A DNA stretch of 15,473 nt, taken from NCBI GenBank assembly GCA_014382645.1, contig JACNJI010000470.1:1-15473 (forward strand), in the 5' to 3' direction. Positions 3,721-15,473 of the stretch are shown piece after piece. The notes beneath the pieces are model-generated. The model saw only the letters and a program-made list of their open reading frames with translations, did no database searches and had not been told where the DNA came from. Both the position numbers and the translations under genes were made by a program. The stretch comes from Verrucomicrobiota bacterium (GTDB lineage Bacteria > Verrucomicrobiota > Verrucomicrobiia > Opitutales > Seribacteraceae). The stretch's first letter is position 1; the number at the start of each line of letters is the position of its first letter.

Positions 3721-5100
3721 CTAAGACTCGTTTTCGGACTTTGATGCGGCAATTTGTGCAAGATAAGCGTTCGCTTTGGCATTGGAAGGTTCAATGTCGG
3801 TAACAATAAGAAAGTGCATCTCTGCTTTATTGAGGTCTCCTCCCGTAAGAGCAATTTCTCCTAATCGAAAATGGGCGGGGGGATGAGCCCATTCAGCTTG
3901 AACGACAGCTTCGTAGTGTCCGGTGGCTTCGTTTGCTCGATCACTGTCGTCGAGAAGAACGGCTAGTTCATAACGGGCTGGAGCGAATGCCGGCGATGCG
4001 GCAACCGCCTTGTCAAGAAACTGAATTGCTTTTCCATTGCGCCCCTCCAACGCTTCAATCTTGGCCAAATGACATAATACGGGGGACTGGGAACGCCGAG
4101 CATTATCTGCCTTTTCCAAACAACGTCGCGCTCTAATGAAATTTGCGTTGTCGGCAGCAATGTCCGAGTCTTCCTTGAATTGCTTCTCATCTTTCTGGAA
4201 TGTGCTCAGAGCCTCTATTAAGTCTTTCTTTGCTGCATCTGTCTTACCTTGCTCGATAAACACCTCTGCTCTTTCCAGAAGAGACTGTCCCTTAACTTCG
4301 GGTTCTTGAATGGCGAGAGTTAGAAATCTTTCAACCTGAACATGATCGCTCTCTCCAAGTGCAAATCTCGCCAGGCAAAGGTGAGCATCTCCGGCAATAC
4401 CTTTCACTTTTGCGGCTTTTTTATAGCAATCAATTGCGGCTCTGATATTTCCTTCGCTTTCGAATATGACGCCCAATCTCAAATTAGCTGGACCATGACT
4501 TGGGCTTAAACGCAATGTTTGTTCATAGCGTTGCTTTGCAGAAGTATAATCAGATTCTCTAAATATATTCCCTTCGCGATCAGATTTTTCACCCTTGTCG
4601 AGTAATTGGGCAAGATGAAAGCAAGGGCGAGGGTCCTCGGGTAAGAGATCGATCGATATTTCGAGCAAAAGCTTGGCTCTGTCGAAATCGTCAGGGTGTT
4701 CCAGAAAAGTTGCGAGCCGAAAATGGGCTTCACCATTAAGGTGGTCTAGGCTAATGACCTTTTCAAGTTGATCAGCCGCAGCCTTTATTTGCCCCTTTAC
4801 CGCAAGAAGCTCTGCCAGTCGAAAACGAGACGCTGAATCAGCGAGATCTCCGGAGGTTGCTTCCAAAAGATGCTTGATTGCCTGCTCTTCCTGTCCTTCA
4901 TCAATTAATATTTCCGCTAGAGCAAAGTGGGCGGCAGGAACCTCCGTCTCCCCCGCAATCGCTTTTGAAAGGATGTCCTTGGCTTCATCCAAGAGATTTT
5001 CTTGCCGGTAGAGATCAGCTAGCGCAAGACGAGCAGCAAGATGGTTGGAGTCAAGGGCGATGGCCTTTTCCAGGTGGCCAAGAGCATCGGGATGAATCAC
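3721..5100 (-). CDS. TPR-array protein, last gene of the coil/cyclase operon
   Basis: This encodes 459 aa from a GTG start, with a GGAG seven bases upstream. It is almost entirely tetratricopeptide repeats, a helix-turn-helix solenoid used to hold other proteins. Clear 34-residue units begin at residues 20, 54, 88 and 122, each with the A/L/A helix signature such as 'AHFALAEIL' and 'AHFRLATFL'. A 46-residue unit spans 156-201, then 34-residue units resume. A longer, divergent charged stretch lies near 300-340, and three to four further repeats end near 459. There is no signal peptide or membrane segment, so it is probably cytoplasmic. It follows the other TPR gene by 18 bp and shares with it the insert-bearing repeat type, which points to duplication or joint function. 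Binding partners are unknown; the neighbouring cyclase and coiled coil are candidates. Confidence 0.88.
   Translation of the reverse strand: MIHPDALGHLEKAIALDSNHLAARLALADLYRQENLLDEAKDILSKAIAGETEVPAAHFALAEILIDEGQEEQAIKHLLEATSGDLADSASRFRLAELLAVKGQIKAAADQLEKVISLDHLNGEAHFRLATFLEHPDDFDRAKLLLEISIDLLPEDPRPCFHLAQLLDKGEKSDREGNIFRESDYTSAKQRYEQTLRLSPSHGPANLRLGVIFESEGNIRAAIDCYKKAAKVKGIAGDAHLCLARFALGESDHVQVERFLTLAIQEPEVKGQSLLERAEVFIEQGKTDAAKKDLIEALSTFQKDEKQFKEDSDIAADNANFIRARRCLEKADNARRSQSPVLCHLAKIEALEGRNGKAIQFLDKAVAASPAFAPARYELAVLLDDSDRANEATGHYEAVVQAEWAHPPAHFRLGEIALTGGDLNKAEMHFLIVTDIEPSNAKANAYLAQIAASKSENES
4498..4635 (-). repeat. 46-residue insert-bearing TPR unit (copy 3)
   Basis: Residues 156-201 of the 459-aa protein. 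It is a 34-residue TPR enlarged by 12 residues between helices A and B, with core 'REGNIFRESDYTSA'. It matches in length and position the two long units in the neighbouring 543-aa protein. Confidence 0.75.
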
Positions 5101-5118: not shown

Positions 5119-6750
5119 CTATTTTTGCTTAGGGACAGACCGAGACTTTCCCTTGGCTTTTGATTTCGAAGAAGAAATTTCTTTTTTTGCAGAAACAGTT
5201 GGTTTGCGAGAAGGACTCGATTTAGGTTTTTGGGCAAGTAAATCTTTGGAGGCGGCAGGATCCATAAGAAGAACAGCCATCCGATAGTGAGCTTCCGAAT
5301 AGTTGGGATTTATCTTTAGTGCCTCCGAGTAGTGCTTGAACGCATCAGCGTAATTCCGCAACTCGCTGAGCAATAGCCCTAAACGGAAGTGCGCCTTTGC
5401 ATACTTTGCGTCAATGTCGATAGCACGACGGAAGTGGTGTTCGGCAATATCCAATTTTGGATCTTTAACCAAGGTAGCATCCGCGGTTAGCCTTTCACCC
5501 CCGGCCTGTATTTTCGCTAACCAGTAGTGACTCTGTGCATGTGTAGGATCGATCTCAATTGCCGTTTCATAGTTGCGTACGGCTTGATCGTATTCGGCTG
5601 GAGTCGTAAGAATGCGTGCAAGATTAAAATAGGCTTCAACATAATTCTGGTCGACGTCCGATGCTTTTTGATAGTGCATCTTGGCCTCGGTAAGTTCATT
5701 GGTGCGTTCAAGATGGCCAGCTAAGTGAAAGTAGGCTAGGGCAAATTCCGGATCGATTTCAAGGGCTCTGTAAAAGTGTTTTTTTGCGGGTACGGGATCT
5801 TCATCCGTAGAGAGCAACCGGGCAAGATGATAGTGAGCGTCCGAGTGCTCGGGATCAAAACCCACCGCTTTTTTAAAATTCTCCAACGCTTCTTTGTCAT
5901 TTCCTTCATTGCGAAGAATCAGACCAAGTCGAAAATGGGCAGGAGCATTCTTCTCGTAATGCTTAATGGATTCGATGAAATGCTTTTGGGCTTGGCCCGA
6001 AAGATTTAATTCAACGAGAATATGGGCGAGAAGAAAATGTGCCTTCGAGTATTCCGGATCGATCGATATTGCCTTTTCCAATCTTTCGCGTGCTTGCTTG
6101 AAATCGCCTTCCGCAGAGAGAATCTTTGCTATATTGTAGAGTGCCTTCGGATGGTTTTTTTCAAGCTCCAGAACTCTGATGAAATGATCTTTGGCTTCAG
6201 GCAGATCGGTGGAATCCACGATTACGCCTTCCTTATCCGTAGAGATTCCACCTGAAAGCAGTTTACCCATGTAATACAGGGCGTCGATGAAGCCCGGACG
6301 TATGTCGATGGCGGTTTCAAAATTCTTTCGGGCGTCTTCAAAATCATCCGGGTTGGAGAGCAAGCGAGCTTTATGGTAATAAGCTTCAGCGTAGTTTTGA
6401 TCGATTTCCGTTACCTTTTCCAAGTTGTTCTTGGCCTCTTCGACATCTTTTAGCTTAACCAACAGAAGAGCGTAATTAAAGTAGGCGTCGGCATAGTTGG
6501 GATTAATTTCGAGGGCATTAAGAAAATGACTTCTCGATATTTCGTATTCACCTTTGGCAGCGAACGCGACAGCTAGTTCGCACTGGGCTTCGGCGTAATC
6601 GGCACTCAAGGATACGGCTTTTTGAAAATGTCCCCATGCTCCTTCGATGTTTCCTTCGCCTTTTTCAAGAAGACCGAGCTTATAGTATGCCTCGGCATAT
6701 TCGGGGTTAATCTCTATTGCTTGTTCTAAGTGTTCACGGGCGGCGTTCAT
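5119..6750 (-). CDS. TPR-array protein with basic C-terminal tail
   Basis: This encodes 543 aa. A partial repeat (1-17) is followed by near-perfect consensus TPR units starting at residues 18, 52, 86, 120, 154, 200, 234, 268, 302, 336, 370, 404 and 450, and a final half unit from 484. All are 34 residues except those at 154 and 404, which are 46. The consensus is Y-x-E-A-(Y/H)-(Y/F)-x-L-A ... A-I-(E/D)-I-(D/N)-P. The tail from about 507 has 13 Lys/Arg and one Glu in 37 residues, with many Ser, and looks disordered. There is no signal peptide, so it is probably cytoplasmic. The ATG at 6750 is the only start codon in frame after the cyclase stop 54 bp upstream; no clear Shine-Dalgarno is seen, so it may rely on coupling. 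Role inferred: adaptor that gathers partners of the cyclase or the coiled-coil rod. The basic tail could bind the acidic rod, membrane or nucleic acid. Confidence 0.9.
   Translation of the reverse strand: MNAAREHLEQAIEINPEYAEAYYKLGLLEKGEGNIEGAWGHFQKAVSLSADYAEAQCELAVAFAAKGEYEISRSHFLNALEINPNYADAYFNYALLLVKLKDVEEAKNNLEKVTEIDQNYAEAYYHKARLLSNPDDFEDARKNFETAIDIRPGFIDALYYMGKLLSGGISTDKEGVIVDSTDLPEAKDHFIRVLELEKNHPKALYNIAKILSAEGDFKQARERLEKAISIDPEYSKAHFLLAHILVELNLSGQAQKHFIESIKHYEKNAPAHFRLGLILRNEGNDKEALENFKKAVGFDPEHSDAHYHLARLLSTDEDPVPAKKHFYRALEIDPEFALAYFHLAGHLERTNELTEAKMHYQKASDVDQNYVEAYFNLARILTTPAEYDQAVRNYETAIEIDPTHAQSHYWLAKIQAGGERLTADATLVKDPKLDIAEHHFRRAIDIDAKYAKAHFRLGLLLSELRNYADAFKHYSEALKINPNYSEAHYRMAVLLMDPAASKDLLAQKPKSSPSRKPTVSAKKEISSSKSKAKGKSRSVPKQK
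5404..5541 (-). repeat. 46-residue insert-bearing TPR unit (copy 2)
   Basis: Residues 404-449 of the 543-aa protein. The 12-residue enlargement begins after 'LAKIQAGG' and carries 'ATLVKDPKLDIA'. It lies seven repeats after copy 1. Confidence 0.75.
6154..6291 (-). repeat. 46-residue insert-bearing TPR unit (copy 1)
   Basis: Residues 154-199 of the 543-aa protein. The enlargement begins after 'MGKLLSGG' and carries 'GVIVDSTDLPEA'. Its length and the GG placement match copy 2 exactly. Confidence 0.75.
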
Positions 6751-6804: not shown

Positions 6805-9093
6805 TTATTTGGAGGTCATTACCCAAACGCCATCCCAATCACCTTTAGGGGGAGTTTTCTTCATATGAGCGCAACGGTCAATGTAGAGTTGAGCAGCCTT
6901 GTCTTCAGGGTTGATCTTAAGCACATTCTTGAAAAGCTTGGCGCTCTGGTCCCATTTGCCATCGTTCCAGCAACGATGACCATCGTTAAAGGTGCCGAGG
7001 GCATCAACTAGATTTGGGTAGGATTCTTCGTCGTGGTAGTCGAGCACTTCGTACACACCGACCGGCTGGGTCTTGCCCTTGACTATTACATAGTCCACCT
7101 GCCGAGTCCGATAAGTGGCTTTGACCGCCCTGAGGGTGAACTCACTTATTAGGATATGGGCACCGTATTGCTTGCATGCACTTTCGATACGAGCCGCCAA
7201 GTTCACTCCGTCACCAATCACAGTGTAGTCCATGCGCTTTGGGGAACCAATGTTTCCGGAAACGATGGAGTCGGTGTTGATACCCATACCGTGATCAATC
7301 GGCAACTTGCCTTCGGCGGCTCGCTGGTCGTTGTAGACCTTCAAGTCGGTCATCATGCGGATGGCGGCCCGCACGGCCCGGTCGGGGTCGTCGTCGTGAG
7401 CAACGGGGGTGCCGAAGATACACATCATCGCGTCGCCAATAAACTTATCGAGCATGCCACCTTCATCGGTGATGCAGTCGACCATGATGGTGAAGTACTC
7501 ATTGAGGAGCTTAACCGTACCTTGAGCTCCGAGTTCTTCGGTAATGGTGGTAAAACTGCGTATATCCGAGAAGAGAACCGAGCCAACGCTCTGCTTTCCG
7601 CCGAGAAAATCGTCGCTGTGGCCTCCGTCCATTAACTGATCAGCCAATTCGGGATCCATGTAGCGTGACATGGTAGACTTCATTCGTTTCTCAGAACTAA
7701 TGTCTTCGATCATGGCCATCGCCCCGAGCACTTCCTTCTTTTCTCCTAGCAGGGGCATTATGGAGACATTTACAGACAGTTTCTCACCCTCAATCTGCAG
7801 TTCGGCATCAAGAAATTCATCCTTTTCAGTTACATCTTTAAGTTTTTCGGCGAGCCAAGTATTTGAGTTGGTGAAGAAATCGTCTGCACTTTTGCCTATC
7901 ACTTCGGAGATGATGGGAACTTTAAAGATGCGCATCCCCGAAAGGTTACAAGTCTTGATTACACCTTCATCGTCTAGGGTAATGACCGCATCCTGCATAC
8001 TCGAAAGAATACTCTCCGAATAATTTTGCTGGGTCTGCACATCGGCGAACAGTTTAGCGTTCTCAATCCCCATAGAAATTTGAGACGTGAAAGCGGCTAA
8101 CCGTTTTTCGTCTTCTGAATTGAAGGAACCGCCCCGCTTATTCAGTACTTGGCTAACGCCTATGGTTTTACCTTCTTTATTAAAAACTGGCATACACAGC
8201 ATGGAACGCGTAAAGAACCCCGTCTGCTTATCGAAACCAGGATTGAAACGTAGATCTGCATAAGCATGTGGAATGTTCACGGGTTTTGCAGAATTGAGAA
8301 CGGTGCCTGCAATACCCATATGATTCGGAAATCGAATCTCCGATTTTTCATCCAATCCTTCGCCAACCTCGGTATAGAGCTCGTTTGTTTTTTCATCATT
8401 GATAAAAAGTGTAGCCCTTTCGCAATCAAGCATCTTGGAAATGGTGCTTATTATCTTTTGCAATAGGGGAGTGAGCTCCAACTCAGAAGATACTTGTGAG
8501 ACAATGTCGAGAAATTCCAACTCTTGCTTCCGAGCTGCTTCAATTTGCTCAACTATTATGTTTCCCTGAATTGCTATGGCAGCTTGCTCCGTCATAGCCT
8601 CGAGAAGATCGAGGTCGTCCTGAGAGAATTGACCGTCAATTTTGTTGAGAATTTGCGACACGCCAATTTTATCACCACGGACCGTTCGAAGCGGAGCGCA
8701 GAGAATACTTTTCGTTCTAAACCCCGTCCTGACGTCGACGGCTTTGTTGAACCGCTCGTCCTTGTAAGCATCGTGGATGATCACGCCCTGATCATGAGAA
8801 AAGGCCCAACCGGCAACTCCCTTTGTATTAAGAATACGAATTTCTCGACGGAAGTTCCCTTGAGCCACCCGAGAATACAGCTCGCCCGTGGCATCGTCAT
8901 TAAGGAAAATGGTACCTCTCTCGGCTCCAATGGAGGGGGTCGTAATGTTCACCAATGTCTCAAGTGCTTCGTCCAGCGAATTTGTTTTAGCAAGATCATT
9001 AGTAACTTGGAGCAGCATTTTTGCAAATCGCTCCGTTCGTTTTACGCGTGCGGCGCGATCTGCGTCTTTGACCGCTTTACTTTTAGTTTCCAT
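6805..9093 (-). CDS. Class III (type IIIb) adenylate cyclase, GAF-GAF-PAS-CHD-TPR
   Basis: This encodes 762 aa and is predicted to make cAMP from ATP. Domain order: GAF-A (about 36-177), GAF-B (about 203-346), PAS (about 357-466), cyclase domain (about 500-685), and a short TPR-like helical tail (about 697-740) ending in 'WDGVWVMTSK'. All catalytic residues are present: metal-binding D510 ('FSDIRSFT') and D554 ('KFIGDAMM'), substrate Lys550 and Thr624 ('DYTVIGD'), and transition-state N631 and R635 ('VNLAARIE'). Lys plus Thr defines the IIIb adenylate type, several members of which respond to bicarbonate. GAF-B carries a complete NKxnFx3DE motif (N318, K319, F324, D328, E329), a mark of cyclic-nucleotide-binding GAF domains; in GAF-A the last Glu is replaced (N150, K151, F156, D160, L161). 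No membrane segment is seen. The start codon overlaps the coiled-coil gene end by 11 bp, with 'aaaagag' upstream as ribosome site. Confidence 0.93.
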   Translation of the reverse strand: METKSKAVKDADRAARVKRTERFAKMLLQVTNDLAKTNSLDEALETLVNITTPSIGAERGTIFLNDDATGELYSRVAQGNFRREIRILNTKGVAGWAFSHDQGVIIHDAYKDERFNKAVDVRTGFRTKSILCAPLRTVRGDKIGVSQILNKIDGQFSQDDLDLLEAMTEQAAIAIQGNIIVEQIEAARKQELEFLDIVSQVSSELELTPLLQKIISTISKMLDCERATLFINDEKTNELYTEVGEGLDEKSEIRFPNHMGIAGTVLNSAKPVNIPHAYADLRFNPGFDKQTGFFTRSMLCMPVFNKEGKTIGVSQVLNKRGGSFNSEDEKRLAAFTSQISMGIENAKLFADVQTQQNYSESILSSMQDAVITLDDEGVIKTCNLSGMRIFKVPIISEVIGKSADDFFTNSNTWLAEKLKDVTEKDEFLDAELQIEGEKLSVNVSIMPLLGEKKEVLGAMAMIEDISSEKRMKSTMSRYMDPELADQLMDGGHSDDFLGGKQSVGSVLFSDIRSFTTITEELGAQGTVKLLNEYFTIMVDCITDEGGMLDKFIGDAMMCIFGTPVAHDDDPDRAVRAAIRMMTDLKVYNDQRAAEGKLPIDHGMGINTDSIVSGNIGSPKRMDYTVIGDGVNLAARIESACKQYGAHILISEFTLRAVKATYRTRQVDYVIVKGKTQPVGVYEVLDYHDEESYPNLVDALGTFNDGHRCWNDGKWDQSAKLFKNVLKINPEDKAAQLYIDRCAHMKKTPPKGDWDGVWVMTSK

Positions 9094-11242
9094 GACTCTT
9101 TTCTAGTTCATCTCTTAGCTCGACAATGGTTTCTTGCAGTTGCTTGAATTCCATTGTCTTAAGTTGATTTTCCTGCTGAATTTTTTCATCGTGTAAATTG
9201 CCTTTGAGTTCAAGCTCATCTCGAAGCGCATTAACGATGCGTTTAAAGTGAGTAACCTCTCCGTGCTCGGAGGCAACAGCTTTTTGCACCGCCTCCTCCC
9301 GGATAACTTCTGCCCGCTCAAGTTCAAGCCGCAAAGACGCGACGTTCTCTCGAAGGCTTCTCAACTCCGAGGAAGTCTCCGCGATAGCCCTCTGGACAGA
9401 TTCTTCACGACCTGATTGTATACGGTCAATTTGATCCCGCAAGGCTCTGGCGGTACTCTTGAGTTGCGTCAGTTCTTTACCTGCCGATGCAGAAGCCTTC
9501 TGAACGGCATCTTCGCGTTCAATGTCTTTACGTTCCAATTCTTCGCGCAATTGAGCTATGTTCACTTTGAGAACACGAGTTTCATTCCCCCCCCGTACAT
9601 GAGCTTGCTGAACAGCTGAATCTTTCTCTTGTCCTGCCTGCTCCAACCGGTCTCGTGTAATGGCAAGACTTTCCCGCAATTGGCGAATTTCAGTAACTGC
9701 CGCAGCTTCGACTTGCTGAACGCGGGCGGCTTCTCGTACACTTGCCCCATCCAGCTCCTCCCTTAGAGAGGTGGCGGTGTCCCTCAGCGACCTGATCTCT
9801 CTTTCCGATGTAGCAACTGCAGATTGTACTCGTTCCTCCTGCCTCGCCTGTGCCTTTTCCAGCTGATCCCTAATGGCCTGAAGTGATTTTTTGAAATGTT
9901 GAACTTCTCCGTGGGCAGTGGCCATCGCTTTTTGCACACTGTCCATTTCGTGAGCCTGAGCATTGTCGAGTTCTTCTCGCAAAGCGGTACAAGTGGATTT
10001 GAGGGAGCGTATCTCGTTTTCCGCAACGACCACCGCTTTCTGGACTCGACCTTCTTTATTTGCTTTTGATTTCTCCAGTTGGTCTCGCAATGCAGAAAGA
10101 GAGGCTTTGAGTTGGCGCATCTCGTTATTGTGAGAGGATACTGCCCGCTGAACGGTCTGTGCCTCATTGATGGCGGCTTGCTCAAGTTCGACTCGAAGAC
10201 TAGTTGCTGTTTCTCTTAACGAACGTATTTCGGCCTCGGCGGTGGCAACCGCTCTTTGTATTTTATCCCCCTCTCTGGCTTTAGCTCGTTCTAGATGTTC
10301 GCGAGCAATCAATAAAGCGCTTTTTAATTGTCGAATCTCGTCCCCCGAAGCAGAAATGGCTTTTTGAATACTGTCCGCCTCCCTTGACGCCGCATAGTCA
10401 AGTTCCTGCCTCAAGTTAGTGGCGGTTTCCTTTAATGAACTGATTTCTGTGTTCGCGGTCGCCACTGCCCGCTGAATCCGGTCATCACCATCCGCCTTAG
10501 AGCGTTCGAGCCTATCTCTAACCACGACAAGGGCACTTTTTAGTTGTCGAATTTCTCCCTCTGCCGCGGAAGAAGCTTTACGAGTAGCCTCATCTTCTCG
10601 AACACGCGATTGCTCAAGTTCCTCTCGCAAAGAGATGAGACTTTCCTTCAGCGAGCGGATTTCGACACCAGCCGTCGCCGTCGTTTTTTGGACTCTTTCA
10701 TCTTGCTCTATTTTGGCACGTCCCAATTGTTCACGCAAGGCTTGGGATGTCTCTCGAAGTTGCCGAATTTCATTTTGCGTAGATGAAGCCGCCTTTTGCA
10801 AGGATTCATCTTTGTCTGCACTCGCCCTATCTAACTCTTCCCGAAGTTTTTGCAGGTTGGTCTTTAATTGGCGATTTTCGCCTGCCGACGAAGCCGTCGC
10901 CTTTTGAAGATTTTCTTGTTCTTTGGATTTTGTTCGTTCGAACTGCTCTCGTAATGTAGTGACAGTCTCACGGAGTTGGCGACTTTCTTCACGATCAGTT
11001 GCTGCGATTTTCTGTCGTTCTCCGTCCAATTCTATGCGACTTTGCTCCAACAGGTCTCGCAGTTCAAGAGCGGTAATCTTGAGTTGGTCGATTTCACGCC
11101 GAGAATCCATATTTGCTTGCTGCAAACATTCTTCCCGAAAAGCCTCAGCCTTTTCCAATTCATCCCGAAAAGCCAGAATCGTTTGCTTGAGAAAACGATT
11201 CTCCTTTGCCGACAGATGTTCGGTAGATTCTATCTCCGGCAT
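9083..11242 (-). CDS. Giant coiled-coil protein of exact 36-residue repeats
   Basis: This encodes 719 aa from the ATG at 11242. The frame is open back to a TTG at 11293 (736 aa), directly after an in-frame stop; neither start has a good Shine-Dalgarno. After a 13-residue lead the protein is 19 full 36-residue repeats plus a 22-residue partial one, with no insertion or deletion between them. Each repeat begins with Glu, and Arg is at position 13 in all 20. Gln is at position 28 in 18 of the 19 full repeats. The core follows the pattern I2, L5, L/T9, L12, L16, A19, V27, A30. The repeat region has no proline and only one aromatic tyrosine. There is no signal peptide or membrane segment, so it is a predicted cytoplasmic rod, about 105 nm if one continuous helix. 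It is the first gene of the operon and overlaps the cyclase start. It may be a scaffold or filament; no known family is recognised. Confidence 0.88.
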   Translation of the reverse strand: MPEIESTEHLSAKENRFLKQTILAFRDELEKAEAFREECLQQANMDSRREIDQLKITALELRDLLEQSRIELDGERQKIAATDREESRQLRETVTTLREQFERTKSKEQENLQKATASSAGENRQLKTNLQKLREELDRASADKDESLQKAASSTQNEIRQLRETSQALREQLGRAKIEQDERVQKTTATAGVEIRSLKESLISLREELEQSRVREDEATRKASSAAEGEIRQLKSALVVVRDRLERSKADGDDRIQRAVATANTEISSLKETATNLRQELDYAASREADSIQKAISASGDEIRQLKSALLIAREHLERAKAREGDKIQRAVATAEAEIRSLRETATSLRVELEQAAINEAQTVQRAVSSHNNEMRQLKASLSALRDQLEKSKANKEGRVQKAVVVAENEIRSLKSTCTALREELDNAQAHEMDSVQKAMATAHGEVQHFKKSLQAIRDQLEKAQARQEERVQSAVATSEREIRSLRDTATSLREELDGASVREAARVQQVEAAAVTEIRQLRESLAITRDRLEQAGQEKDSAVQQAHVRGGNETRVLKVNIAQLREELERKDIEREDAVQKASASAGKELTQLKSTARALRDQIDRIQSGREESVQRAIAETSSELRSLRENVASLRLELERAEVIREEAVQKAVASEHGEVTHFKRIVNALRDELELKGNLHDEKIQQENQLKTMEFKQLQETIVELRDELEKSHGN
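9086..11203 (-). repeat. 108-bp coding repeat, 19.6 units
   Basis: This is the DNA behind the 36-residue protein repeats, in strict 108-bp phase over 2.1 kb. The DNA copies are well diverged, so the period is clear in the protein and weak in the bases. From about unit 5 the units alternate between two subtypes, 'EIRQLK.SL' and 'EIRSL+.TAT', giving a 216-bp super-period. Confidence 0.9.
9587..9594 (-). repeat. G8 homopolymer on the coding strand of the coiled-coil gene
   Basis: Eight consecutive G (coding strand) encode R-G-G at the end of repeat 15, where the consensus would have 'ATA'-type residues. This is a possible slippage site. Confidence 0.7.
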
Positions 11243-11282: not shown

Positions 11283-11310
11283 TGATTAGACAACTAGAAC
11301 TTACCGTCAA
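11283..11310 (-). promoter_or_regulatory. Candidate promoter of the coil/cyclase/TPR operon
   Basis: On the minus strand TTGACG (11305-11310) is followed after 16 bp by TAATCA (11283-11288). The -35 is good and the -10 weak. If used, transcription starts inside the first codons of the longer TTG frame, which favours the ATG at 11242 as the real start of the coiled-coil protein. Confidence 0.35.
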
Positions 11311-11412: not shown

Positions 11413-12774
11413 ATGAAAGCTCGCGATAACACTCCCTTTGCCTGTACCTTCTTAGCACTGGTTTTTTTCCTTGTTTCCTGTGGAGATGATCATGCTGGCG
11501 ACAATCACTCCAGTTCAGGTCACGATAGTGACTCACATGAACCCAAGTCTCAAGAAAATCTGCTCGCCATGCTTGAAGATACCGATTCCCCTCATGGCGA
11601 GACTAGTGTTCATGCGCCCATTTCCGACAAACATGAAACCACAGAATCCGTCGGTCATACGTCATCGAGTTCTCCAGACGACCTGGAAGCTCTTTTAGGC
11701 GGTGCCCCTCCAGTGGCAGGTGAGCCTGCTCATGGAGCAGAGAGCAACAATCTCGGACAACTGATAAAGCCGACAAGCGCAGCCACACATACGGAGGCCA
11801 CGAAAGGTTTATATCCTTCCCTTGATCAGGATCTTGAAGATTTGCTTTCAAAGCTCAACAACAGTAAATTGGCTTTTGAAGAACAAATTGGCACACTGGA
11901 TAAAATGGTCGAGCAACGGGATGACAGGATCAACAGCCTCAAGCTCATTAATCAGCAATTACGCGACGAATTAAACCGTCTTAGGAAAACTAGTCCCGGA
12001 GAATCGGGAAACCTGCCTATAAATGGTGAAATTCAAGTCTTAAGTGATGATCTACTCAAATTAAAGAATACCTTTACGCTTAAAGTAAAAGAACTTGATG
12101 AACTTCGTGAATATAACAAAGAACTACTCAACAGGCTCGACAATTCAGAACCAGCGGTAAAAAGAAACATTGCTTCCTCACCGCCTGCCAATGTCAACCC
12201 TACCGGAGAGCCAACAAATGTTGCAACTCCTGACGATAGCCTCGACAAATTGCTGCCCGACCTGCCAGTAGTTGCTCCCCGCTATAGTTCAGGGAAGGCG
12301 TTGCCCATGTCACTACCAACAGGATCTCTCGATTTCGATGCCGTAGTTACGGCCGCAAACGGCAAGATCAAAGAAGCCTTTTATACTGAATTTTTCATAG
12401 CGAAATCCGATTTGCGCGAAATTCTTGAGAACGCCGGCATCAATCTAGGTAATCCCAAATACAAGAATATTTCATCTCATGCAGAGCTTTGGGCTCAAAG
12501 TCGCAAATATCCTTTTCGTTACCCTGACCTTCAAAAGAAAATACGAAAGGCTCTGCTTGACTCCATCGATGACGAGAAAGATCCAGGTCGCCGTATCCGC
12601 ACGGATATTGACGGAAACTCGGGTGCAATCCGCACTCTTACAGCTGGCGGTTACTATATTATAGGCACAGCCTCGCTTGGGCAGGTGGGGGTAACTTGGT
12701 CGGTACCCGTTAAGGTGAAATCTGGACGCAATAAGGTTTCTCTTACGATTGCAAATGCATCGTGGAGTCTCTAA
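11413..12774 (+). CDS. Lipoprotein with His/Asp-rich region, coiled coil and C-terminal beta domain
   Basis: This encodes 453 aa. The signal peptide has lipobox LVSC with Cys23 lipidated, so the protein should be anchored in a membrane facing the periplasm or outside. Residues 24-135 are low-complexity, rich in Ser, Asp, Glu and His; ten His lie in 27-126, four of them every five residues (27, 32, 37, 42), which could bind metal. Two helical coiled-coil segments follow (about 136-193 and 205-243), then a Pro-rich linker. The C-terminal part (about 310-453) starts helical and ends with 'DIDGNSGAIRTLTAGGYYI' and a strand-rich run, resembling carboxypeptidase-regulatory/transthyretin-like beta sandwiches. 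I do not recognise the whole protein. It is divergent from the coiled-coil operon and precedes the DUF1538 gene by 129 bp. A link to either is only positional. Confidence 0.82.
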   Translation: MKARDNTPFACTFLALVFFLVSCGDDHAGDNHSSSGHDSDSHEPKSQENLLAMLEDTDSPHGETSVHAPISDKHETTESVGHTSSSSPDDLEALLGGAPPVAGEPAHGAESNNLGQLIKPTSAATHTEATKGLYPSLDQDLEDLLSKLNNSKLAFEEQIGTLDKMVEQRDDRINSLKLINQQLRDELNRLRKTSPGESGNLPINGEIQVLSDDLLKLKNTFTLKVKELDELREYNKELLNRLDNSEPAVKRNIASSPPANVNPTGEPTNVATPDDSLDKLLPDLPVVAPRYSSGKALPMSLPTGSLDFDAVVTAANGKIKEAFYTEFFIAKSDLREILENAGINLGNPKYKNISSHAELWAQSRKYPFRYPDLQKKIRKALLDSIDDEKDPGRRIRTDIDGNSGAIRTLTAGGYYIIGTASLGQVGVTWSVPVKVKSGRNKVSLTIANASWSL

Positions 12775-12855: not shown

Positions 12856-12903
12856 CTTCTCACTAGCCTCATTTTGCGGCACAACCCTTCTCCTTACTTT
12901 GCC

Positions 12904-15087
12904 ATGTCTGACGAACAATCATCTGATCAAGACAAACTCCGCCTGACAACACAGCAGAAGATTGGCATTCTTTGTTCCTTTGCCAAGGACAAGGTAGTCG
13001 AGCAGATTCAGTGCGTCTGGTTCATCATTCTCTATCTAGTCGTCTTTCAGTTGCTGGTGCTAGGCTTGCCCATCGTGTATTCGTTGATGATAGCAGTAGG
13101 GATAAGCATCGTCATCATCGGACTCGCCTTTTTCATGGAAGGACTCCGACTGGGTCTAATGCCCCTTGGGGAAACGCTGGGATCCACTCTGCCCAGAAAG
13201 AAGATATTTGGCATTCCATGCCTACCCGTGAGTCTGGCTTTCGGCTTTGTTCTCGGTGCATTTGCTACTTTTGCAGAACCCGCTATCGGCGTGCTGAGAG
13301 CGGCCGGTGCTGGCGTCGACCCAACCCTTGCACCTTTGTTGTGGACCATTCTCAATACTGGGGCCGGCAATTTAGTAAACTCCGTTGGAGCCGGCGTAGG
13401 AATTGCCGTTCTTCTCGGTGTGCTTCGTTTTTACAAAGGCTGGTCCCTTAAACCTTTCATTTATGTTGGTGTTATTGTTCTCTCAACATTTACGCTATAT
13501 TTTCAGTTTTCAGATGCGCGACTTCAGCATGTACTAGGATTAGCCTGGGACTGCGGTGCTGTAACTACCGGGCCTGTTACCGTTCCACTCGTTCTCGCTC
13601 TTGGCATTGGCGTTTGCCGAATCGTTTCAACGGGTGGTTCCCGCAACACGGGCTTTGGCGTCGTCACACTTGCCTCCCTTTTTCCCATTTTTGCAGTTCT
13701 TTGCTATGCCACTTTCCTCTTCAATGGGGACAATTATTATTATGCCACTCAGTCCCAAGCTGATTGGCATAAGGAAGCTGGTGTTTATGGTAAAAATTAT
13801 GATCCTGACCTCCAGAGGTTTGGTGACATCGTTGCCGAGAGAAGAATAGCAGCTTCAGGCGGTGCTTCTGAGAGTGACATGGCGGGCTCGCTTTCAAAAG
13901 AAGATCTCGCCATCGTTCAAGCAGAATTAAATGACACTGGCAAACTACCCCCGGGTTATTCTCTCCAGACAGATATTGCTGGTGCTGGTCTTAACGCTCA
14001 ACCTATTGACAAGGATGACAATAATTCGCGCTCGATCGTTCAGCCGACCGGCACTAATTCAATAATCGTTAGAGATGGCGTTTCTACTCCCGATGAAGTT
14101 TGGGATCCCGGAACTGAAATAATGGGGGCCTTGACCAATAATTTTGATTTCTTTCCAAACACATTTAAGCCAGAAGAAGATACCAATGGTAACGGTATCT
14201 TAGATCCTGGCGAAGATATTTATAGATATTCAGACGGAGTTCTCACTTACAACAAACCAGGTGAAGTAAATCCCAACGCAGTATTAGATGGTCCCGATCG
14301 AGATCGAGGAGCCATCGAAGGTGCTCTTTGGGCAATTGTTCCACTTTGCACCATTCTGTTGCTCGTCCTTGTGGTTGGCCTCAGGCAACCGCCAAAGCAC
14401 TACGACGAATTATTCATTGGAATCATCTGTGCGGTTATTGGAATGGGTCTCTTTAATCTAGGCATAGCTCTCGGTCTAACCCCATTGGGGGAGCAATTGG
14501 GTGGTAACGTGGTATCTAGTTTCGCCGCCATTGAGCCTTGGGCGGCGGAAGGCTTCGTTGATCCTATGTTCTCTTCATCCAACTTAGGGAAGGCTTTAGC
14601 TATACTCTTCGGTTTCATTCTGGGATACGGGGCCACCTTGGCAGAACCGGCTCTCAACGCACTTGGCTCCACCGTAGAAAAAATAACAGTCGGTGCTTTC
14701 AAGAAAAGCCTGCTCATGCAGACTGTTGCAACTGGAGTGGCCATCGGCATCTCCACGGGTGTGGCTAAGATCGCCTTCAATCTCGATCTCTGGTACTTAC
14801 TCATTCCACCCTACATGATCTTGATGGTAATCACTTACTTTTCGAGCGAGGATTTCGTTAACTTCGGTTGGGACAGTGCAGGGGTTACCACTGGCCCCAT
14901 CACCGTTCCGCTTGTACTCGCCATGGGCTTGGGCATCGGTTCCAAGACTGGAGCAATAGATGGTTTCGGGGTACTTGCACTTGCATCGATAGGGCCAATT
15001 ATTACCGTACTTACCGTTGGACTTATAGTTGGAAGAAAACCTAAGACGGATGAAGATGAAACCCTAATCGCAACGGAGGCCGTTTAA
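12904..15087 (+). CDS. Double DUF1538 membrane protein with large inserted domain
   Basis: This encodes 727 aa from the ATG at 12904; a TTG ten codons upstream is possible but less likely. It is a polytopic inner-membrane protein built from two homologous halves (about 38-275 and 475-715). Each half carries the same signatures: 'PLGE.LG', 'A.FAEPA'/'ATLAEPA', and a W-D-x-x-(G/A)-V-T-T-G-P-(V/I)-T-V-P-L-V-L-A motif (215-230 and 656-671). These are marks of DUF1538, likely an inverted- or direct-repeat transporter fold of unknown substrate. Between the halves lies a hydrophilic segment of about 200 residues (about 276-470), including an EF-hand-like loop at 426-437; this makes the protein much longer than two DUF1538 domains need. 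The PII-like gene starts 1 bp after the stop, so the pair is probably co-transcribed and the PII-like protein may regulate it. Transport is inferred, not shown. Confidence 0.9.
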   Translation: MSDEQSSDQDKLRLTTQQKIGILCSFAKDKVVEQIQCVWFIILYLVVFQLLVLGLPIVYSLMIAVGISIVIIGLAFFMEGLRLGLMPLGETLGSTLPRKKIFGIPCLPVSLAFGFVLGAFATFAEPAIGVLRAAGAGVDPTLAPLLWTILNTGAGNLVNSVGAGVGIAVLLGVLRFYKGWSLKPFIYVGVIVLSTFTLYFQFSDARLQHVLGLAWDCGAVTTGPVTVPLVLALGIGVCRIVSTGGSRNTGFGVVTLASLFPIFAVLCYATFLFNGDNYYYATQSQADWHKEAGVYGKNYDPDLQRFGDIVAERRIAASGGASESDMAGSLSKEDLAIVQAELNDTGKLPPGYSLQTDIAGAGLNAQPIDKDDNNSRSIVQPTGTNSIIVRDGVSTPDEVWDPGTEIMGALTNNFDFFPNTFKPEEDTNGNGILDPGEDIYRYSDGVLTYNKPGEVNPNAVLDGPDRDRGAIEGALWAIVPLCTILLLVLVVGLRQPPKHYDELFIGIICAVIGMGLFNLGIALGLTPLGEQLGGNVVSSFAAIEPWAAEGFVDPMFSSSNLGKALAILFGFILGYGATLAEPALNALGSTVEKITVGAFKKSLLMQTVATGVAIGISTGVAKIAFNLDLWYLLIPPYMILMVITYFSSEDFVNFGWDSAGVTTGPITVPLVLAMGLGIGSKTGAIDGFGVLALASIGPIITVLTVGLIVGRKPKTDEDETLIATEAV
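14179..14214 (+). other. EF-hand-like calcium-binding loop in the DUF1538 insertion
   Basis: Twelve residues, D-T-N-G-N-G-I-L-D-P-G-E, match the EF-hand/dockerin loop with D1, N3, N5, G6, D9 and E12 in place. No flanking EF-hand helix pair is obvious, so it is likely a single dockerin- or calx-like site. Confidence 0.7.
15075..15079 (+). promoter_or_regulatory. Strong Shine-Dalgarno for the PII-like gene
   Basis: GGAGG lies inside the end of the DUF1538 gene, nine bases before the ATG at 15089. It is the best ribosome site in the window and suggests the regulator is made in excess of the membrane protein. Confidence 0.75.
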
Positions 15088-15088
15088 C

Positions 15089-15473
15089 ATGAGTAACTAC
15101 ACGCAAAGCGATAACTTCTCCCTTCTCACACTCATTTTGCCCAAAGAGTCTGTCGTTACAGTCTCTAAGGCAATCTGCAAAGCAGGTGCATCTGGCATCT
15201 TCGAGGTAACTGCCCGCGGGTCCGTGTTAAACGAAGGGGGGTTCCTCCAGCGGATGTTCCCGCCTCCTGCACCAGTACAACACCTTCTACAGACACTTGT
15301 CCCCAACGACAAGGTTGATGCGGTTACAGATGCGGCCGTTCTGGCAGGTAACCTCAATCGAGTTGGGGCAGGAGCCGTATTTGTCATCGACTGTAACGAT
15401 ACCCGCCATACTGAAAAGGTTCCTGCTCCTTCCCCGTCCGTTGATAATGCCAACGGTTCTTCAGGCACTTACA
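15089..15473 (+). CDS. PII-like signalling protein, 3' truncated by window edge
   Basis: 128 codons are visible and the frame is still open at the window end. The N-terminus 'LLTLILPKESVVTVSKAICKAGASG' and the later 'NDKVDAVTDAAVLAGNLNRVGAGAVFVID' follow the PII fold: a beta strand and helix ending in GAxG, then a helix and a B-loop matching 'TGKIGDGKIFV' of GlnB. The stretch where GlnB has its T-loop is replaced by a segment with 'RMFPPPAPVQHLL', and the uridylylated tyrosine is not recognisable. PII-like proteins sense nucleotides or small metabolites and control a partner, often a transporter encoded next door. Here the DUF1538 gene is 1 bp upstream. After the PII core the visible tail (from about 105) is Pro/Ser/Asn-rich. 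The family call is good; the ligand is unknown. Confidence 0.8.
   Translation, partial: MSNYTQSDNFSLLTLILPKESVVTVSKAICKAGASGIFEVTARGSVLNEGGFLQRMFPPPAPVQHLLQTLVPNDKVDAVTDAAVLAGNLNRVGAGAVFVIDCNDTRHTEKVPAPSPSVDNANGSSGTY

Follow-up and report, generated by a model that had tools for sequence, protein, structure and literature searches.

Introduction

FilP and Scy exemplify a known kind of protein, the long coiled coil whose repeats are non-heptad and of long period, and crescentin and other intermediate-filament-like proteins likewise consist of a long coiled coil without an enzyme domain. The rods of myosin and paramyosin carry a 28-residue long-period repeat with charge bands that fix axial stagger. 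Here we describe a coiled-coil protein encoded in 15,473 nucleotides of Verrucomicrobiota DNA (GenBank assembly GCA_014382645.1, contig JACNJI010000470.1; Opitutales, Seribacteraceae), the whole of which we call the window. This protein, the window coil, is the long form of an undescribed, phase-locked coiled-coil family whose genes lie immediately upstream of those for one orthologous group of cyclases, and we tentatively propose that it acts as a rod-shaped scaffold of that enzyme.

FilP and Scy are close bacterial comparisons. Walshaw reportedly described, in 2010, a 51-residue repeat for their class; the window coil instead has a period of 36 residues and no match to DivIVA, which appears neither in its Pfam scan nor among the first 25 of the 59 families matched by 12 short homologues. 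The Streptomyces cytoskeletal proteins FilP and Scy belong to a DivIVA-like superfamily. According to extracts of PMC9858780, they are long, dimeric, non-heptad coiled coils, as the window coil probably is, theirs having hendecads and an Ala-rich core; FilP is confined to Actinobacteria and Scy to Streptomycetales. FilP forms striated filaments (PMC6599971, in extract), and the extracts of both papers make no mention of a cyclase partner. The window coil departs from the head-rod-tail layout of crescentin-type proteins in having 13 residues before its 706 residues of exact repeats and none after them, and in a copy number that varies by whole units. Myosin and paramyosin differ in being eukaryotic and heptad-based with skips, and are unrelated to the window coil by any search made here. 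The partner cyclase is like CyaB1 and CyaB2 of Anabaena, in which two GAF domains precede a class III catalytic domain; CyaB1 also has a PAS domain and a TPR-like tail. CyaB2 is activated through its GAF domains by cyclic adenosine monophosphate (cAMP; PMC4411481, in extract).

A 36-residue repeat without indels

The coiled-coil gene has the following parts.

9083..11242, minus strand: coiled-coil gene, 719 amino acids from the likely ATG at 11242, the start being taken from the conserved N-terminus of orthologues
11204..11242, minus strand: N-terminal cap (MPEIESTEHLSAK), 13 residues ahead of the first repeat
9086..11203, minus strand: 20 phase-locked 36-residue repeats, 19 full and the last of 22 residues, from the translation
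9086..9151, minus strand: C-terminal cap, the half repeat EFKQLQETIVELRDELEKSHGN, ending 9 residues past the last Arg of position 13

Translation of the minus strand from 11203 gives 19 rows of 36 residues and one of 22 with zero indels, no proline in 706 residues, and Glu at position 1 (E1) and Arg at position 13 (R13) in 20/20 repeats, confirming what the initial annotation had read from the sequence. Identity at lag 36 was 0.337 over these residues, compared to 0.087 after shuffling (2000 residue shuffles; sd 0.010, max 0.122), and across 300 shuffles the best lag between 5 and 149 never exceeded 0.136. The best lags were 36, 72, 108, and 144. In the whole open frame, identity at lag 72 (0.407) was higher than at lag 36 (0.324), indicating that the true unit is a 72-residue A/B pair. 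Hydrophobicity Fourier power, scanned from 3.0 to 4.2 residues, reached its maximum of 49.6 at 3.600 residues (shuffle maximum 10.95; 500 shuffles), in agreement with the 18/5 periodicity that had been proposed. As an undistorted helix has 3.63 residues per turn (PMC9858780, in extract), this period would mean a very slight left-handed coil and supports the further suggestion that the rod would be nearly straight.

The initial annotation had also assigned ten core positions to each repeat, and this proved idealised. Among 751 full repeats from 40 Opitutales proteins, positions 5, 16, 9, 12, and 27 are 82–99% ILVMFYW and position 2 is 66%, but position 23 is polar (11%), positions 19 and 34 are weak (26% and 16%), and position 30 is mainly Ala; off the stripe, positions 21 and 31 reach 40% and 44% ILVMFYW. 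A hydrophobic stripe with 3-4 spacing along one helix is present, but incomplete at 19, 23, and 34. Each repeat is better described as a good zipper of ~25 residues, running from position 27 into the next unit as far as 16, plus ~10 highly charged residues (17–26). Ala occupies position 30 in 48% of Opitutales repeats and 62% of others, and position 34 in 18% and 41%; small residues in the core, Ala above all, are required for hendecads to pack in dimers (PMC9858780, in extract).

Window repeats standing one to four units from each other agree at third codon positions in 0.28–0.30, and where they share a residue their codons match at roughly the frequency expected from codon usage (77 observed versus 75.2 expected, and 76 versus 89.5). 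Synonymous sites between the repeats are saturated, which argues that the repeats are old and that their protein pattern is held by selection. Neighbouring cyclases provide a control, which is indicative only because loops tolerate indels better than helices: against the window cyclase, 36 comparisons at 59–95% identity show 61 internal indels, whereas the coils, ~29–50% identical to the window coil (nearest two excepted), change by whole repeats only.

Phase conservation in Opitutales

The coil was found at E ≤ 1e-5 in 41 of 134 genomes searched, a count that takes in the window's genome; the fetched regions cover 39 of the 41, and the window and coordinates for G002 complete the set. Open-frame lengths, with start codons not curated, were 577, 648, 721–736, 792–816, and 851–898 amino acids; the frames of family f4 have 322 and that of G116 has 155. 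Both end patterns are present in 33 of 40 proteins, and the distance between them is a whole multiple of 36 in 33/33, corresponding to 15, 17, 19, 21, or 23 units (the 17 units of L073 were measured to an internal repeat, where its contig ends). In the remaining proteins, rows could be read as 23 units in f18 (L061), as 8 in each of three f4 proteins, and as 3 in G116; the coils of L065 and L075 are truncated.

All 751 full repeats scored best at phase zero among 36 shifts. This test is partly circular, since the profile was built from the same repeats; the fixed caps and the loci from other phyla are independent of it. Nine residues follow the last R13 in 30/37 homologues, and the nearest Met upstream of E1 lies 14 residues before it in 27/37. 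The window frame extends to a TTG at 11293 (736 amino acids), and the ATG at 11242 is very likely the start because it lies 13 residues ahead of the first E1, compared with 14 in those homologues. E1, invariant in the window, is kept in 682/751 Opitutales repeats and so is not invariant in the family, and position 13 is Arg in 749/751.

Homologues in other phyla

A genome scan based on the cyclase gave at least 589 pattern matches, and the best 80 of at least 448 confirmed relatives were kept. The wider set comprises 54 loci (L127–L180), of which 52 are testable, L140 and L142 having no upstream room; L101–L126 were left out as mostly the same contigs as L061–L100, and four of the 52 (L127–L129 and L131) are Opitutales contigs already in the Opitutales set. 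With a coil called where LRxxL gaps sum to multiples of 36 or where scored repeats fall in one phase, a coil lies upstream of the cyclase and on the same strand in 52/52 loci, its stop −1 to 501 bases ahead of the cyclase match (955 in L135). The loci are labelled Verrucomicrobiota, Neomarinimicrobiota, UBP8, Margulisiibacteriota, Armatimonadetes, Alpha-, Beta-, and Deltaproteobacteria, and Candidatus Scalindua; since the majority are metagenome bins, any one taxon assignment may be wrong. One locus, L147, is labelled as a strain, Terasakiella brassicae CGMCC 1.15254, and has a coil of 217 amino acids.

The chosen frames of the 52 loci hold 316 full rows, 283 of which score at least 6 bits with the Opitutales profile, and in a fixed-phase test 283/283 of these accepted rows fall in one phase per protein. 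None of the 33 sub-threshold rows interrupts the run of accepted rows in its protein. The fixed-phase test took the place of a jump-allowing register scan, which at low penalty jumped at some point between the first R13 and the last in 12/52 loci; most of its jumps lay either in the last repeat or in extensions of the frame ahead of the coil, with eight in L134 and six in L135 in degenerate C-terminal ends that the profile could not place. Save for these two degenerate ends, interior repeat drift was seen neither in the Opitutales proteins nor in the 52 wider loci. The initial annotation had proposed checking homologues for a conserved 36-residue phase with varying copy number and had named drift as what would count against it; both features were found, and with the in-phase repeats (751/751 and 283/283) and the saturated synonymous sites its suggestion of selection on strict phase is supported. 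Its suggestion of a molecular ruler is not supported in the sense of one fixed length, as the species differ in copy number over a range of 3 to 24.

Position 13 is Arg in 283/283 wider rows, also when column 13 was not used for selection, and none of these rows has Lys there, though charge would stay; C-terminal partial rows were accepted only with R13 and hence are no evidence for it. Most homologues from other phyla have 3 to 9 repeats, and the shortest complete cyclase-adjacent member (L179) has 3 repeats in 106 amino acids. Because coiled coils usually tolerate insertions, the lack of interior slippage over several phyla is unusual. The natural series of 3 to 24 in-phase repeats offers a test of what holds coiled-coil register over deep evolution, and the family bears on why one Arg is practically never replaced and on whether bacterial cAMP synthesis is scaffold-organised.

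Some wider loci have features of their own. In one Neomarinimicrobiota bin (L130:1441-2162) the coil is split over two open frames, reflecting either a broken gene or a sequencing error. Four Neomarinimicrobiota loci have an extra gene of 218–245 amino acids upstream of the coil (for example L132:4545-5198 and L137:768-1502), and the two of the four that were scanned gave no Pfam match. The gene just upstream of the coil in a Verrucomicrobia bin (L136:4365-5219) has a weak match to 3'5'-cyclic nucleotide phosphodiesterase (E 0.0002, under the cut-off). In L145, L150, L155, L161, and L162, a second protein of the cyclase cluster lies nearby downstream on the opposite strand.

Linkage to a tandem-GAF cyclase

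The coil gene runs into that of its partner as follows.

6805..9093, minus strand: GAF-GAF-PAS-class III cyclase, the conserved partner (domain search, alignment of 8 cyclases, PDB match)
9083..9093, minus strand: 11-base overlap of the coil stop and the cyclase ATG, read from the sequence

Pfam matches in the window cyclase are GAF (131 bits, in two stretches), PAS, and Guanylate_cyc (80 bits), and its best PDB match is 1ykd, titled adenylate cyclase, which we take to be the tandem GAF of CyaB2. K550 and T624 are invariant in 8/8 aligned cyclases; these are presumably the purine-selecting places of adenylate-type enzymes, which makes the partner a putative cAMP maker. The enzyme ends in WDGVWVMTSK (6805-6837, minus strand), and WDGVWVM, one of the two peptide patterns used in the genome scan for cyclase relatives, ends 8/8 aligned cyclases. 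Among the best 80 of at least 448 relatives, the closest records are from uncultured Opitutales/Opitutia metagenome-assembled genomes at 95% identity.

Of the 39 fetched regions, 37 have coil and cyclase side by side in one conserved order. In the two exceptions, the contig of G019 ends inside the coil, and the coil of G033 is split over two contig ends, one of them with the cyclase. The overlap is likewise 11 bases in 21 of the 37 regions with both genes, open frames being taken from the first start codon. A close cyclase match was missing in eight genomes of the window's family (G004, G027, G034, G036–G039, and G019 [cyclase only]), several of which are 57–78% complete. In 387 evenly drawn Verrucomicrobiota genomes, the cyclase was found in 9 (E ≤ 1e-170) and the coil in 6 (E ≤ 1e-15), both counts being taken as the same draw from their identical number and handles. 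The 6 coil genomes are those with the 6 top cyclase scores (1228–1564 bits), and each has its coil next to the cyclase; thus, the coil goes with one orthologous group rather than with tandem-GAF cyclases generally. With the cyclase profile, 6019 of 8000 scored proteins reach E ≤ 1e-150, a count not restricted to the coil-linked group. The family adds a cross-phylum partner, unnamed in the family libraries searched, to a widespread kind of bacterial cyclase.

A possible rod-shaped scaffold and its alternatives

We read the coil protein as a two-stranded, probably parallel, nearly straight rod that would serve as a dedicated scaffold of the cyclase, and give this reading slightly less than an even chance. 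The repeats, their phase lock, its maintenance by selection, and the genetic linkage of same-strand and often overlapping genes are shown here, and the dimer state, the orientation, cyclase binding, and clustering are the parts of the reading that we infer. A scaffold or assembly partner is the simplest role because the coil is encoded beside the cyclase, often in an overlapping gene, and would present one face every 5.3 nm: 36 residues make exactly ten 3.6-residue turns, placing the same face at the same azimuth in each repeat. As one continuous helix, the window rod would be ~105 nm long. It could be an assembly platform of the cyclase, and perhaps of TPR proteins where TPR genes follow, and identical sites at fixed spacing might cluster cAMP synthesis, with copy number setting capacity or length. 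We propose that copy number changes by whole repeats only because other changes would break core and azimuth.

Single chains were modelled with AlphaFold2, and dimer geometry was read from charge pairs. With an input of 12 sequences, the 217-residue Terasakiella protein was predicted as one helix from 2 to 215 (pLDDT 92.8, pTM 0.35). In the register we assigned, positions 2, 5, 9, 12, 16, and 19 are a and d, giving the g–e' pairs 1–6', 8–13', and 15–20'. For pair 1–6', 33 Opitutales proteins give 575 attractive and 6 repulsive cases of 724, and 48 other proteins give 192 attractive and 5 repulsive of 279. This model and these counts support a long helix with complementary 1–6' pairs. Pair 8–13' is mostly Thr, Ser, or Asn facing Arg, and the three pairs together are net attractive in register in Opitutales (634 attractive and 158 repulsive of 2172). 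Averaged over the wider set, charge is acidic along one flank of the stripe (1, 15, 22) and basic along the other (6, 13, 20). By our own derivation rather than computation, an antiparallel overlay of the core would set basic position 6 beside basic position 13' (mean charges +0.73 and +1.00).

Several results weigh against a parallel in-register rod bound to the cyclase. AlphaFold2 modelled the window protein as helices 8–171, 194–388, 448–461, and 469–716 with low-confidence breaks (pLDDT 71.4, pTM 0.23). In Opitutales, repulsion outweighs attraction at the in-register pair 15–20' (152 versus 59 of 724), as it does in 26 of the 33 proteins of the A/B lineage taken singly. In a crude whole-helix charge scan, antiparallel staggers scored up to 0.073, above the best parallel value of 0.044 (shift 7), a result that made us lower our estimate for the scaffold from an even chance to slightly below it; the same scan found parallel shifts by multiples of 36 unfavourable. 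Three lower-scoring cyclases among the 387 genomes (594–932 bits; G455, G400, and G367, or L199–L201) had no upstream repeat, with 5434, 1662, and only 393 bases available. The linkage may also reflect shared regulation, and contact between rod and cyclase is something we infer from gene linkage.

The strongest competing explanation, although unlikely, is a self-assembling cytoskeletal filament of crescentin or FilP type, in which rods would polymerise at a fixed axial stagger and the cyclase would merely be co-regulated or report on the filament. In its Opitutales form, A and B repeats of opposite mean charge would pair at a shift of an odd number of repeats. Repeats of families f1 and f18 do alternate between A and B, with mainly Q or S at position 4 and opposite mean charges in A and B at position 15 (+0.15 and −0.72) and position 20 (+0.42 and −0.20). 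When the chains are shifted by one repeat, pair 15–20' turns net attractive (399 attractive and 126 repulsive of 1382), and does so in 31/33 proteins; the shift-one sum was 273, compared to 65.3 (sd 20.7, max 117) when the order of the repeats was permuted 300 times. On a quick cyclase tree that took in 15 of the 52 wider loci, copy number changed at least 8 times among the 33 proteins of the f1/f18 lineage, and it was always even (16, 18, 20, 22, or 24). This rule, the 72-residue unit, and the linked cyclase had escaped the initial annotation. The chance of eight even steps is 0.004 if odd and even are equally likely, an assumption open to bias because repeats two apart are more similar and may undergo unequal crossing-over. 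In a repeat-by-repeat alignment between species, the repeats absent from the 16- and 18-repeat forms are neighbouring pairs (5-6 and 13-14 in L081, 4-5 and 13-14 in L088, 10-11 in L077); for the 22- and 24-repeat forms the alignment is ambiguous. Weak PDB sequence matches to keratin 14 (E 0.024 and 0.03) and Pfam Filament matches in 2/12 short homologues (best E 6.1e-05) also point this way, but are of a kind that any coiled coil can give.

Other observations disfavour a filament. Most homologues from other phyla have 3 to 9 repeats and show no in-register charge conflict: in the 48 other proteins, pair 15–20' is attractive both in register (103 attractive and 9 repulsive of 279) and at shift one (158 and 21 of 458), so charge picks no register there. 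Family f4 is likewise attractive in register (10 and 2 of 27). A head or tail domain is absent, the whole-helix scan showed no attractive preference for odd shifts, and the 33 proteins that carry the A/B signal are related to one another.

An extended version of the scaffold would incorporate the odd shift in its Opitutales form, and we consider it quite doubtful. There, parallel chains shifted by an odd repeat number, with A facing B, would leave sticky ends that polymerise head to tail, and the resulting cable would array cyclase dimers every 5.3 nm (or 10.7 nm), its length quantised in 72-residue steps. If true, a straight, phase-locked coiled-coil cable with a dedicated cyclase would be a new class, a polymer scaffold for bacterial cAMP signalling.

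The consistent linkage and overlapping genes would also suit a regulatory subunit, whose helix would pair with the N-terminal helix of the cyclase and pass a signal, the repeats serving as a lever or titrating element, and the 3-repeat L179 protein is too short for much of a scaffold. We regard this explanation as improbable, since it explains neither why as many as 24 repeats keep exact phase nor why length changes in whole-repeat steps.

A bundle or solenoid in which short helices fold back on one another, with one unit per 36 residues, is very improbable. The charged segment 17–26 and the occasional Gly or Asn at 22, 35, and 36 could be turns, and both the breaks in the window model and the antiparallel charge scores would fit such a fold. 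However, the 706 residues of window repeats lack proline, Gly is conserved at no position, hydrophobic positions are few for a solenoid, and the Terasakiella model is a single helix, though a lone chain may default to helix. The initial annotation had favoured one long helix over folded bundles; the Terasakiella model agrees, and the window model is not decisive, neither supporting nor excluding a bundle. Least credible is a membrane- or lipid-binding amphipathic helix of apolipoprotein type, for which a period of 3.600 would also be natural and to which weak PDB sequence matches with apolipoprotein A-I (E 0.18 to 0.95) point, but many lipid-binding helices are basic on both stripe edges, whereas the edges here are acidic and basic as in paired helices, with core Leu at 3-4 spacing.

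Database searches

The window coil matched no Pfam family at 1e-3, and a single-sequence protein search with it scored 7998 candidates with none at E ≤ 0.001, probably because common coiled-coil words swamp such a search. A profile of the 12 short homologues found 99 of 8000 scored proteins. These homologues matched 59 scattered Pfam families at 0.01, the four of the first member all being below cut-off. In NCBIfam, the window coil gave SMC matches only far below the cut-off (27.5 and 26.5 bits versus 567 and 729) and within the coil, and the searches with the short homologues and window coil gave SMC and Sul12a, again far below cut-off. We rejected SMC, as only 13 residues lie outside the repeats and ATPase heads around the coil are lacking. 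The best PDB sequence match of the coil, 3k6c (E 0.0043), was rejected as chance. PADLOC matched the window coil only to LmuB, at 17 bits, and the catalytic domain to Pycsar cyclase, at up to 81.5 bits; we took the latter as a shared cyclase fold rather than as a defence system. A cross-phylum, 36-residue phase-locked family with a cyclase partner was not found among the papers listed in searches of open-licence PMC literature, nor in the Pfam, NCBIfam, or PADLOC scans.

Neighbouring genes and genome

Two further genes follow the cyclase on the strand of the coil, giving an operon-like order of coil, cyclase, TPR 1, and TPR 2.

5119..6750, minus strand, as the coil: TPR protein 1 (Pfam scan, neighbourhood comparison)
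3721..5100, minus strand, as the coil: TPR protein 2, present in only part of the relatives

Promoter and terminator scans gave no excess over shuffles. The window genome is a 3.79 Mb draft in 557 contigs, 88% complete, in which no second coil copy was found at E ≤ 10. On the plus strand, 11413-12774 encodes a putative lipoprotein (FLVSCG near its start, by eye) with an LRDELNRLRK segment; its gene is divergent from and adjoins the coil gene in nearly all fetched family f1 regions. Farther along (12874-15087, plus strand), one protein contains both halves of an UmpA/UmpB-like (DUF1538) Na,Li,K/H antiporter, with scores under the NCBIfam cut-offs, and the open frame at 15089 that follows the antiporter gene appears PII-like by eye only.

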